The position numbers were made by a program, and so were the translations under genes. Positions 23,491 to 41,003 of a stretch of 64,000 nt of DNA are shown here, one piece after another. Numbering within the stretch: the first letter of the stretch is position 1; every line of letters begins with the position of its first letter. The stretch is from an uncultured Sphingomonas sp. (GTDB taxonomy: Bacteria > Pseudomonadota > Alphaproteobacteria > Sphingomonadales > Sphingomonadaceae): contig CAJYOI010000055.1 in the NCBI GenBank assembly GCA_913776045.1, positions 1 through 64,000 on the forward strand, read 5' to 3'. Below the pieces are notes generated by a model. The model was given only the letters and a program-made list of their open reading frames with translations, did no database searches and had not been told where the DNA came from.

Positions 23491-24309
23491 TTACGCGTTG
23501 GCGGGCTGCTGCTCGCCCTCGGCGGCCGAAGCGGCCTGCTGCTCGACGATCGGATCGCTCGACAGCGCTTCCTCAGCCGGCGGCGTGTCCATGGCGCCGA
23601 TGTCGACGCCACGCTTGGCCTGACCCTGCTGGTTGCCGCGGGTCGCCGCGATCGCGACGGCTTCGCAGTAGAGGCGGATCGCACGGCTCGCATCGTCGTT
23701 CGCCGGAACCGGGAAGGCGATGCCATCCGGGCTGACGTTCGAATCGAGGATCGCGACGACCGGGATGCCAAGCGTGTTGGCTTCCTTGATCGCCAGCTCT
23801 TCCTTGTTCGCGTCGATCACGAACATGATGTCCGGCACGCCGCCCATGTCCTTGATGCCGCCCAGGCTCAGCTCGAGCTTGTCGCGCTCGCGGGTCAGCT
23901 GCAGGACTTCCTTCTTCGTGAGGCCGGCGGTGTCGCCCGACAGCTGCTCGTCCAGTGCCTTGAAGCGCTTGATCGAACCCGAGATGGTCTTCCAGTTGGT
24001 GAGCATGCCGCCCAGCCAGCGGTGATTCACGTAATACTGACCGGCCTTGCGCGCAGCCTCGGCGATCGGTTCCTGCGCTTGGCGCTTGGTGCCAACGAAC
24101 AGCACCTTGCCGCCGCTGGCGACCGACGCGCTGATGAAATCGAGCGCGCGCGCGAAGAGCGGAACCGTCTGCGACAGATCGAGGATGTGCACGCCGTTGC
24201 GATCGCCGAAGATGTACGGCTTCATCTTCGGGTTCCAGCGATGCGTCTGGTGGCCGAAGTGCGCGCCCGATTCGAGCAGGGCGTGCATGGAGACGACGGG
24301 AGCCGCCAT
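23491..24309 (-). CDS. rpsB: 30S ribosomal protein S2
   Basis: S2 binds the 30S head-body neck and is needed for S1 loading. [31 protein letters not shown] and [12 protein letters not shown] are signature segments. The C-terminus carries an alanine/glutamate-rich extension typical of sphingomonads. The gene heads the rpsB-tsf-pyrH-frr series; its leader and promoter lie in 24310-24621, a region shared with the divergent gene at 24622. Confidence 0.97.
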
Positions 24310-24621
24310 AGGGTAGGTCCTTTCCGGTTAAGCCTCTGGGAAGCGATGACCGGCCGTTTGATGCGCTAAAAGCGCCGGCGGGCACCGGGTTATGTGCTTC
24401 CCATGCGGGGTTGAGGCGGCGCGCTTAGTCGAAATCCGCCGGACACGCAAGTGCGCAAATTGGAACAAAAAGAGATTGACACCCGGAACGTTGGCAGAAC
24501 ATAACAGCACCACCGCTCGAACAGAGCGCATGTTCCAGCTGTTCTGGAACAACATATGTGGTCAAGCGTCTGGATTCATTGAGTTTCGGGTCAACGAAGC
24601 TCGGCAGGGAGCCCAAGGGTG
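24310..24621. other. Divergent intergenic region with dense GTTC/GAAC motifs
   Basis: This 312-bp stretch separates rpsB (leftward) from the small membrane protein gene (rightward). It holds the LexA-type box listed next and further half-sites: GAAC 24519-24522, GTTC 24532-24535, GTTC 24541-24544, GAAC 24547-24550, the middle two spaced by 5 rather than 7. TTGACC on the minus strand near 24566 may be a -35 for rpsB. No RNA gene is recognised. Confidence 0.55.
24476..24504 (+). promoter_or_regulatory. Promoter with alphaproteobacterial LexA (SOS) box
   Basis: TTGACA (24476-24481) and ACATAA (24499-24504) are 17 bases apart. The spacer and -10 carry GAAC-N7-GAAC (24486-24489 and 24497-24500), the direct-repeat operator of alphaproteobacterial LexA, so repressor would block the promoter. 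The same arrangement, on the opposite strand, is found before recA in this window. It points at the gene starting at 24622. Confidence 0.6.
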
Positions 24622-24849
24622 ATGGCAATTCTCTCATACGCAATGTTCGCCGCGGCCTTCGTGGCGTCGGTCTGGACGATCTGGGCGACCATTGCGCCGC
24701 AATTTTCGCGCATCGTCGATCTTCTGACCAACGGCCCTGTCGCGACCCCGACCCTGCCCGCACCGGTTCCAGCGCGCAGCAACCTGCGCAACGTCAGGGT
24801 GCAGGGCGTGGCGGCGTCGCCGCGATCGCCGCAGCGCGCTGTCGCCTGA
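24622..24849 (+). CDS. Small single-pass membrane protein, candidate SOS-induced
   Basis: The 75-residue product starts MAILSYAMFAAAFVASVWTI, one strong membrane helix (about residues 3-27), then a short amphipathic stretch (APQFSRIVDLL) and a proline-rich, basic, probably disordered tail. ATG 24622 (or GTG 24619) lies 118 bases after the promoter that contains a LexA-type box. Caulobacter makes small SOS-induced membrane proteins that halt division (SidA, DidA); those share this topology class, but no sequence homology is claimed. The last 56 bases overlap the 3' end of pssA, read from the other strand. Confidence 0.6.
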   Translation: MAILSYAMFAAAFVASVWTIWATIAPQFSRIVDLLTNGPVATPTLPAPVPARSNLRNVRVQGVAASPRSPQRAVA

Positions 24850-25627
24850 TCTTCGCATACGACCGGACGCTGAACGGCAGCGTCAGCAGGTAGAGGAAGG
24901 TCACGACGCTCAGCGTCTGCCACGGGGCGGAGATGATTGCAGCCCCGACTGCGACGACCACCACGATCGCTTCGAATCTTATGTTTCGGCGCAGCTTCAG
25001 CGACGACCAGCTATAGGTCGCAAAGCTCGACACCATCAACACCGCGATCAGCGCGATCCACGGCGCCATCAACCACGGCGAGCGCAGCCACGGTTCGCCG
25101 GTTACGAACCACAGATACATCGGCAGTAATGCAAGGGCGGCACCGGCAGGGGCCGGCACGCCAGTGAGGAATCCCGCCGATTTGTGCGGCTGATCTGCGA
25201 CATCGATGCGGGCGTTGAACCGTGCGAGACGAAGCGCTGCGAACACCGCATAGACGAGCGCGCAGATCCAGCCGATCCGCGGCTCGGCCTGAAGCGACCA
25301 GAGGTAGATGACGATCGCCGGCGTCACACCGAAGTCGATCGCGTCGGCGAGCGAATCGAGTTCGGCACCGAACCGGCTCTCGCCGCGCAGCATCCGCGCG
25401 ATCCGTCCGTCGATGCCATCCAATGCGGCGGCGACCATGATGAAGACGACCGAACGCTCCCAGTCGCCGCCGATCGCATAGCGTATCGCGGTCAGGCCGG
25501 CGCAGAGCGCCAGCGCGGTGATGGCGTTCGGCACGAACGCTCGCAGCGGAATGCCGCGATCGGCACGATCCGATCGGTCACGGCGTCTCAAACCAAAGCG
25601 CGGCTCGCGGATTGTATCATTGGGCAA
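24794..25627 (-). CDS. pssA: CDP-diacylglycerol-serine O-phosphatidyltransferase
   Basis: PssA makes phosphatidylserine from CDP-diacylglycerol and serine at the inner membrane; Psd, encoded just upstream, turns it into phosphatidylethanolamine. The CDP-alcohol phosphotransferase motif [11 protein letters not shown] followed by GxxxDxxxD ([15 protein letters not shown]) is complete, within 7-8 membrane segments. No ATG fits; TTG 25627, overlapping the psd stop by 11 bases, is the likely start, giving 277 residues. Confidence 0.92.
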
Positions 25628-26363
25628 CGCCAATCGCTTTCTGACCGCCGACGCGGCCGATAATCGTCTCACCAGCAACCGCACGCTGGCCGAGCGCCAC
25701 CTGCGGTTCGCAGCCGTCGGGCAGGTACACGTCGACGCGGCTGCCGAAGCGGATCAGGCCGATCCGCTGGCCCGCCGCGACGATGTCGCCGACCTTGGCG
25801 AATGTCATGATTCGCCGCGCGACCAACCCGGCGATCTGGGTGAAGCCGACCTTCGCCCCGTCCGCGCCTTCGACGATGAAGTGCTGCCGTTCGTTCTCGT
25901 CCGACGCCTTGTCGAGATCGGCATTCAGAAACTTGCCCGAAATATAGACGACCTGCCGCACCGTGCCCGAGATCGGCGTACGGTTGATGTGCACGTCGAA
26001 CACCGACATGAAGATCGACACGCGCACCAAGGGCGCGTCCCCCAGACCCTGCGGCCCGGCGAGTTCGCGCGGCACCGGCACGCGTTCGATCATCGTGACC
26101 AAGCCATCGGCGGGCGAAACGATCAGCCCCTCCCCCTGCGGCGTCGTGCGGATCGGATCGCGGAAGAACGCAGCAACCCAGATCGTCAGGCCGATGAACG
26201 GCCACGCCCAGAACCACCCCCCCAGCCATAGCGCCAGCAGCGCAAGGCCGCCCGCGATCACGGTATATTTGCGCCCTTCCGAGTGAACGCTGGGAAAACG
26301 CCACTTGACGGTCGTCATAATGGACAGGCCGCCGGGGCCTTCGGGCTTGCGAAGCGAAGTCAT
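25617..26363 (-). CDS. psd: Phosphatidylserine decarboxylase proenzyme
   Basis: Psd cleaves itself at a Gly-Ser bond to form a pyruvoyl group and decarboxylates phosphatidylserine. Residues about 20-55 carry two membrane-associated segments ([18 protein letters not shown]). The family blocks [29 protein letters not shown] and the cleavage site [13 protein letters not shown] are clear; it belongs to the short (about 230-250 aa) type. ATG 26363 is used; ATG 26318 is an alternative. It is translationally coupled to pssA. Confidence 0.93.
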
Positions 26364-39840: not shown

Positions 39841-40911
39841 TCAGAGATCGTCCTCGGCATCCGGGCCGGTCATCATTTCCTCGGCGACCTTTTCGGTGCG
39901 CTGGCGAATTGCCTTTTCCAGACGATCGGTCAGCTCCTGATTTTCCTTCAGAAAGGTCTTGGCATTCTCGCGACCCTGACCGATGCGGATGCTGTCGTAG
40001 CTGAACCACGCACCCGCCTTTTCGACCAGGCCCGCCTTCACGCCGAGATCGAGGATCTCGCCGATCTTCGAAATGCCTTCGCCATACATGATGTCAAATT
40101 CGACCTGCTTGAACGGCGGGGCGACCTTGTTCTTCACCACCTTCACGCGGGTCGCGTTGCCGATGATGTCTTCCTTGTCCTTGATCTGCCCGGTGCGACG
40201 GATGTCGAGGCGGACCGAGGCGTAGAATTTCAGCGCGTTGCCGCCCGTCGTCGTCTCCGGGTTGCCGTACATCACGCCGATCTTCATGCGCAGCTGGTTG
40301 ATGAAGATCACCATGCAGCGCGAACGGCTGATCGAGCCTGTCAGCTTGCGCAACGACTGCGACATCAGGCGTGCCTGCAGGCCAACGTGGCTATCGCCCA
40401 TCTCACCTTCGATTTCGGCGCGCGGCACGAGCGCGGCGACCGAATCGACCACCAGCACGTCGATCGCGTTGGAGCGGACCAAAGTATCGGTAATTTCCAG
40501 CGCCTGTTCGCCGGTATCCGGCTGCGACACGATCAGTTCGTCGATGTTGACGCCCAGCTTCTTCGCATAGACCGGGTCGAGAGCGTGTTCGGCATCGACG
40601 AAGGCCGCAGTGCCGCCGTTCTTCTGCGCCTCCGCGATGACGTGCAGCGCCAGCGTCGTCTTGCCCGACGATTCCGGGCCATAGACCTCGATCACGCGAC
40701 CGCGCGGCAGGCCGCCGACGCCGAGCGCGATGTCGAGTCCGAGCGAGCCGGTCGAGATCGCCTCGACCTGCATCGCTTCTTTCTGGCCCAGCTTCATTGC
40801 CGAGCCCTTGCCGAACGCGCGGTCGATCTGCGCGAGAGCGGCATCCAATGCCTTTTGCCGATCAGAATTCGTTGCCATGCCGCTGTCGATGACCTTCAGG
40901 TTCGCTGCCAT
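39841..40911 (-). CDS. recA: Recombinase A
   Basis: RecA, 356 residues: strand exchange and activation of LexA self-cleavage. Walker A GPESSGKT, the [20 protein letters not shown]-like loop 2 (here [20 protein letters not shown]) and [20 protein letters not shown] are present; the C-terminus is acidic (GPDAEDDL). ATG 40911 follows GGAG by eight bases; ATG 40878 is the shorter alternative. A perfect LexA box is 78 bases upstream. Confidence 0.97.
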
Positions 40912-40988: not shown

Positions 40989-41003
40989 GAACAAGTGTGG
41001 AAC
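40989..41003 (-). promoter_or_regulatory. LexA box of recA
   Basis: GAAC-N7-GAAC on the plus strand (40989-40992, 41000-41003), that is GTTC-N7-GTTC on the recA strand, exactly the alphaproteobacterial SOS consensus. An extra inverted GTTC at 40980-40983 stands five bases left of it. It lies 78 bases upstream of the recA start. Confidence 0.88.

Follow-up and report, generated by a model that had tools for sequence, protein, structure and literature searches.

The window analysed in this study, a stretch of 64,000 nucleotides from an uncultured Sphingomonas sp., contains a small gene between the divergent rpsB and the convergent pssA, and the 3' end of pssA overlaps the last 56 bases of the small gene on the opposite strand (Table 1). 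The original prediction had placed here a TTGACA-N17-ACATAA promoter overlapping a LexA-type box, followed by a 75-residue single-pass membrane protein with a proline-rich tail, and each of these parts was indeed found. An operator of the GTTC-N7-GTTC form of the alphaproteobacterial LexA regulon is present at 24486-24500, between the -35 and -10 elements. As had also been claimed, the box has the same form as that of recA, with the orientation relative to the gene being opposite at recA. Furthermore, the open reading frame has 75 codons, the AlphaFold2 model of its product (mean pLDDT 75.9) consists of one helix at residues 2-37 and a disordered tail, and the tail is rich in both proline and arginine and ends in -RAVA. 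A GTG at 24619 provides an alternative start, and the leader contains, as judged by eye, the inverted repeat GTTCCAG-N5-CTGGAAC (24532-24550) together with more GAAC/GTTC half-sites.

Table 1. Features of the small gene's locus and of recA in the window
Feature	Positions	Strand	Remarks
rpsB (ribosomal protein S2)	23491..24309	-	divergent neighbour; Pfam PF00318
-35 element TTGACA	24476..24481	+	read from sequence
LexA-type box GAAC-N7-GAAC, GAACGTTGGCAGAAC	24486..24500	+	between/over -35 and -10
-10-like element ACATAA	24499..24504	+	17 bases past -35; read from sequence
Leader, 117 bases	24505..24621	+	between -10-like element and ATG
Small membrane protein gene (P0001)	24622..24849	+	75 codons, 75 aa; ATG 24622, stop 24847-24849
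pssA (CDP-alcohol phosphatidyltransferase)	24794..25684	-	convergent; Pfam PF01066 and PF08009
recA	39841..40911	-	Pfam RecA
LexA-type box of recA, GAACAAGTGTGGAAC	40989..41003	-	77 bases upstream of recA

We then investigated how much weight the box can bear. The bare GAAC-N7-GAAC occurs four times in the window, where 1.62 copies are expected, with four or more copies in 7 of 100 shuffles, and 83 times genome-wide against 24 for the reversed pattern; since it is common in both the window and the genome, the box alone is weak evidence. The composite TTGAC-N2-8-GAAC-N7-GAAC was found once in the 3.15 Mb genome and not in the control. It is the conservation of the box across the family, described below, that settles the observation. 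The host itself has LexA and the operator at known SOS genes: lexA, on contig C23, is the sole strong match to Pfam PF01726 in the genome (57.3 bits) and has a box 14 bases ahead of the gene, and the box likewise precedes recA, uvrA and three polymerase genes of the IMS family, assigned by Pfam. This survey of the regulon covered 20 stretches around boxes, chosen by eye among the 83 for A+T-rich spacers, and two further loci. Three further box-led genes resemble, by eye, what we take to be imuA (two) and alkB (one), the two imuA-like proteins giving no Pfam match, and in several box stretches (e.g. L271, L272, L284 and L286-L289) no SOS gene was recognised.

A protein search with P0001 gave matches in 24 of 61 genomes, at 27 places, and a profile search with the small protein reached 102 of 397 genomes of the family. 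Since searching by sequence alone recovers few genomes, the loci were sampled through the neighbouring genes instead. The genus set comprised 21 loci from 21 genomes, the window's included, in each of which a single stretch carries both rpsB and the gene; six of the 27 places were excluded, five as not syntenic (L017, L027, L028, L034 and L035) and one (L014) as beginning 22 bases before the open reading frame. In all 21 loci, the box follows a few bases after TTGAC. A second GAAC-N7-GAAC lies in or beside the promoter at six loci, 23 bases apart in L023, L025, L030 and L033, and 29 apart in L011 and L013.

For the family sample, one rpsB was taken per genome from 109 genomes of 95 genera, the window's genome among these, and membrane ORFs of 45-170 residues with a hydrophobic stretch were called by script. 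As a result, rpsB-pssA synteny was found in 81 of the 109 genomes, 77 of which carried both the exact box and a membrane ORF, as compared with none of the 77 control windows of the same size placed 1.6-2.3 kb upstream. Among the remaining 28 genomes, pssA was found in 25, of which 21 have a box behind TTGA at its 3' side, accompanied in 18 by a scripted membrane ORF. When the rpsB and pssA loci were pooled, the exact box was present in 102 of the 109 genomes and the small membrane ORF in 100 of the 102, the ORF script having been aimed at hand-chosen stretches near rpsB for G128 and G147. Thus the outcome that would have counted against the original prediction, a box that is not conserved where the gene is, did not occur. 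The expected conservation held for the box and the gene together, and was weak for the protein sequence, as the profile search indicated.

Five of the seven genomes lacking the exact box have a one-mismatch box at the same place in the promoter, namely AAAC-N7-GAAC as found by script in G061 and G154, and boxes located by eye in G110, G083 and G130. No box was found in the other two, G085, which gave no pssA match, and G100, whose locus is short. The two box-bearing genomes without a scripted ORF are G090, which encodes a 35-residue version, and G067, in which no clear ORF is visible. This version in G090 (L311) is nearly pure membrane helix and close to SidA in size. The geometry of the promoter is likewise kept, in that TTGA[CT] starts 9-12 bases ahead of the exact box in 92 of 102 genomes (the other 10 lack TTGA at this distance), and in at least 77 of the 102 the box is directly followed by AT, AA or AC. 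The distance from box to start has a median of 95.5 bases and a range of 27-168 among the 100 members with an ORF.

Next, a sample of 80 named rpsB loci, partly overlapping the first sample, was examined. The nearer set spans L065-L133, four of which are broadly or oddly titled, and 67 of these loci were counted after two with too little upstream sequence had been excluded. The exact box lies within 700 bases in 56 of the 67 loci, among them loci from Sphingomonas, Sphingobium, Novosphingobium, Sphingopyxis, Erythrobacter, Porphyrobacter, Croceibacterium, Tsuneonella and Blastomonas. A one-mismatch box was found in L085 and L115 and a box displaced beside pssA in L109 and L110, and the stretches of L095, L103, L111, L112, L124, L131 and L132 contained no box. 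The motif was found in one of the 11 outgroup loci (L138 among L134-L144), there with neither this promoter nor, by eye, a membrane ORF, and in the 700 bases from the rpsB start there was no box in any of the 80 named loci. In other families of the order, pssA was matched in 23 of 24 genomes, and boxes were found at two of the 22 loci examined, both of the family f2; both precede a small membrane ORF that may be related to the sphingomonad gene. By the named loci, the family holding the gene is the Sphingomonadaceae with the erythrobacters, and within it the box, the promoter geometry, the layout and the position persist while the protein sequence diverges beyond recognition.

The position of the gene was further analysed relative to its two neighbours. 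In 17 genomes, there is no pssA in the stretch upstream of rpsB, and the box is found at pssA instead; these are the 21 genomes with a pssA-linked box less G138, G149 and G084, in which that box has stayed about 3 kb or less from rpsB, and G072, the rpsB contig of which is too short to tell. In G147, pssA is on a different contig, and the promoter and the gene lie 4.6 kb from rpsB. G128 (L183) has two tandem copies of the gene, both ending in -EAA and with pssA not adjacent, the second copy having an exact box with unusual -35 spacing and the first having no exact box. In G066 and G159, in which no pssA was found, the box and the gene are kept and, by eye, a psd-like sequence adjoins. Since the box and the gene travel together away from rpsB or from pssA, the site is unlikely to serve either neighbour. 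In the family sample, the interval separating rpsB from the -35 element of the SOS promoter contains the recurrent words AATCCAGC and TGTGGAAT, which perhaps belong to the control of rpsB; the only Rfam match here was a sub-threshold rpsB leader at 24313-24407 of the window, on the minus strand.

The small proteins of the 100 members have a median length of 79 residues (range 49-117). One membrane helix in a small protein, a feature of the class of SOS division inhibitors, was found in the window's protein by the model and in the members by a script that itself demanded a hydrophobic stretch. The tails, with a mean of 58 residues, contain 907 arginines, 89 lysines and 529 prolines in 5828 residues and are net positive in 97 of the 100 members. 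No lysine or arginine stands ahead of the helix in the members, an outcome that is favoured by choosing the start nearest the helix. By the positive-inside rule, the tail is probably cytoplasmic. Its sequence is poorly conserved among the members.

Codon changes were compared over the first 50 codons of the 21 genus members, where nonsynonymous change was below synonymous change in 128 of 131 gene pairs, which are not independent of one another, and in all 16 pairs that include the window's gene. Among pairs at least 55% identical, nonsynonymous change was below half of synonymous change in 14 of 15, a choice by identity that itself favours low values. These changes fit a protein under selection, and since the constrained codons lie outside the overlap in the window, they indicate that the protein itself matters. 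No family model in Pfam, NCBIfam or PHROGs matched the small protein, and a profile search of the PDB gave as its best hit ribosomal L36, at a not meaningful E of 0.077, while a search of the PDB by fold gave no match. Pfam detected no LysM domain in 21 members, in line with the disordered tail of the window's model.

In 78 of the 79 genomes in which it could be measured, the small gene and pssA overlap, by a median of 59 bases. The small proteins end in AA in 87 of 100 members and in A in 96, as compared with an AA end in two of 40 long, mechanically chosen ORFs of the window. An -RAAA end was considered as a degradation tag resembling that of ssrA (the genome's own tmRNA tag is ANDNEALAIAA), and this idea was downgraded, since the conserved end of PssA, SYAR(V/I)RRQR-like, lies opposite the end of the small gene, in a single phase in 76 of 79 genomes. 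The overlap with the conserved PssA C-terminus thus means that the -RAAA end is at least partly forced. Where pssA is not adjacent, all five sequences from four genomes still end in AA (-EAA in both copies of G128 and in G147, -RAAA in G066 and G159), and these represent few lineages.

Published one-helix SOS division inhibitors are reported to act on FtsW or FtsN (PMC4211646, PMC6851548, PMC13396833), and they are among the known systems to which the gene was compared. SidA of Caulobacter crescentus, a 29-residue SOS-induced division inhibitor acting on FtsW, is likewise a LexA-controlled small inner-membrane protein from an alphaproteobacterium, with Caulobacter boxes of the form GTTC-N7-GTTC (PMC12700426, PMC4211646). 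Compared by description only, the sphingomonad members differ from SidA in their basic tail and in their fixed rpsB/pssA neighbourhood. DidA, also of Caulobacter, has 71 residues and one helix and is thus similar in size and build (PMC4211646), but it is SOS-independent, induced by DriD and in contact with the periplasmic part of FtsN, whereas the sphingomonad gene has LexA-type control and a tail predicted to lie inside. The 77-residue SosA of Staphylococcus aureus resembles the sphingomonad protein in build, with a helix on its N-terminal side followed by a tail, and in SOS control; it retains 25-60% identity among staphylococci at the same locus, and its C-terminus is implicated in turnover (PMC6851548). 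The tail of SosA is, however, extracellular according to PhoA-LacZ fusions (PMC6851548), again a comparison by description only. YneA of Bacillus, whose helix binds TM7 of FtsW, and ChiZ of Mycobacterium are SOS-induced one-helix division inhibitors as well (PMC13396833), but carry a LysM domain, whereas the sphingomonad protein has no Pfam domain. Finally, DinQ and TisB of E. coli are SOS-controlled one-helix membrane peptides, and DinQ, with 27 residues and under antisense-RNA control, depolarises the membrane when overexpressed (PMC3567139). By its kind, the gene has its place among the small membrane proteins of the SOS response; its sequence family had no match in any of the libraries searched.

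Because of the motif and its conservation, we infer that LexA controls the gene, and repression by LexA with induction by DNA damage is almost certainly its mode of regulation. LexA bound to GAAC-N7-GAAC would cover the -35/-10 spacer and keep the promoter shut; upon DNA damage, cleavage of LexA would open it. By analogy with the inhibitors above, the helix would then dock on the septal machinery and delay cell division during repair, and the tail might help the turnover of the protein, so that division would resume as LexA returns. We consider arrest through the septal machinery probable, and a LexA-controlled small membrane protein that stops division during repair, kept across one family, is, taken as a whole, a somewhat probable account of the gene. 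SulA (Pfam PF03846) was found in none of 21 genomes, a set with 13 members of the genus and with the window's genome, whereas the E. coli control was positive, and P0001 gave no match to the same model. Against a role in division stand the predicted topology, with its basic tail inside, opposite to that of SosA, and the fact that small SOS membrane peptides can act otherwise, as DinQ and TisB do. Also against this account stand the weak conservation of the protein, the lack of a box in G085 and G100, the lack of a clear ORF in G067, and the 10 of 102 boxes without TTGA at the usual distance.

Several other explanations were weighed. The protein might be an SOS membrane toxin of the TisB/DinQ kind, whose helix would depolarise the membrane and leave the cells dormant and tolerant, and it is true that E. 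coli has single-helix peptides under SOS control (PMC3567139) and that the 35-residue version in G090 is nearly helix only. However, an arginine-rich tail averaging 58 residues, or the 75 residues of the window's protein, compare poorly with the 27-residue DinQ (PMC3567139). The variable length of the leader, and the fixed place and near-universal presence of the gene in the family sample, also speak against a toxin, which we thus regard as unlikely. To our knowledge, such a near-universal, fixed-place presence is unusual for toxin-antitoxin modules. Another task for an SOS membrane protein would be tethering, with the arginine-rich tail holding the nucleoid or replisome at the membrane; the tail is indeed basic and probably cytoplasmic, and the DnaA-box-like arrays described below, found in roughly one leader in five, hint at a link to replication. 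However, the sequence of the tail is poorly conserved and one natural version (G090) does without it, and this task is quite improbable.

The frequent overlap with pssA, and the box found at pssA in the 17 genomes that have no pssA upstream of rpsB, would suit a target in phospholipid synthesis, either through interference of SOS transcription with the convergent pssA or through an action of the protein on membrane-located PssA. Yet the gene persists without an adjoining pssA in G147 and, with an unusual box spacing, in G128, the box and gene are kept in G066 and G159, where no pssA was found, and the first 50 codons, which the overlap in the window does not reach, show coding constraint, so that this target appears decidedly improbable. 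As for a box that is coincidental or serves rpsB, the commonness of the bare motif in the genome would allow it, but with the exact box in nearly all genomes of the sample, also away from rpsB, and in none of the control windows, this is contradicted by the comparison and scarcely conceivable. Arrest of division remains the preferred reading. In the accessible parts of the literature, our searches found no description of such a gene in sphingomonads and no answer to how these bacteria halt division after DNA damage, and SulA was absent from the genomes searched. A study of anaerobiosis in Sphingopyxis lists lexA, recA and imuAB, with no such gene mentioned in its accessible part, and the word 'transcriptome' is absent from a mitomycin study of Citromicrobium. 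For the signal that would halt sphingomonad division while the DNA is broken, the small gene offers a good candidate. Being near-universal in the family sample, tied to a LexA-type box and matched by no family model, it makes the open question of division arrest experimentally tractable, and it is a clear case of position, promoter and build being kept while the sequence changes.

Additional elements were detected in the leaders, downstream of the SOS promoter and ahead of the start codon. The 100 leaders, 8665 bases in all, contain 32 copies of the DnaA-box-like TTWTNCACA, in 30 genomes, as compared with 0.5 in shuffles, none in a control of 53,900 bases and one in 13,080 bases adjoining rpsB. 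At least two copies of TC[CA]ACA were present in 27 of the 100 leaders (shuffles: mean 0.08, maximum 1), and 23 of 29 spacings were exactly 11, defining in 21 of the 100 leaders an array of 11-bp period in which the 9-mers (TTATCCACA) stand 2 bases apart, as in G157 (L222), G120 (L190) and G073 (L208). In the named sample, the array was found in six of 57 leaders, four of them from Novosphingobium (L086, L093, L101 and L116). A genome-wide scan of 12 genomes, 10 picked for having the array, gave 15 matches in those 10, with one to three each and two for the reversed-pattern control, and at least one match lay in the small gene's leader in each of the 10. The window's own leader has no array, and TCCACA occurs in only four of the 21 genus loci.

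A 2-base gap between 9-mers is the spacing of cooperative DnaA arrays at oriC, and from the DnaA-box consensus, DnaA is predicted to bind the arrays in the leaders. Tentatively, part of the family might thus have two locks, LexA at the promoter and, in roughly one sampled leader in five, a DnaA-box-like array, on a tail-inside SOS division inhibitor of a new kind, which would be released only when DNA damage coincides with scarce or inactive initiator DnaA; we regard this proposal as rather doubtful. The link to DnaA, if real, would join the start of replication and arrest upon damage at one promoter.

The genome of the window showed a few further features. Two tmRNA genes, L196 on contig C11 and L197 on C5, encode the identical tag ANDNEALAIAA, and the pair reflects either duplication or contamination (estimated contamination 2.96%). 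The window also encodes, at 1290-1988 on the minus strand, another LexA-like DNA-binding domain (PF01726, 25.9 bits, at 1734-1907). Finally, two genes that appear radical-SAM-like by eye, at L278 and L285, start 3 and 23 bases past a box and are possible further SOS genes.
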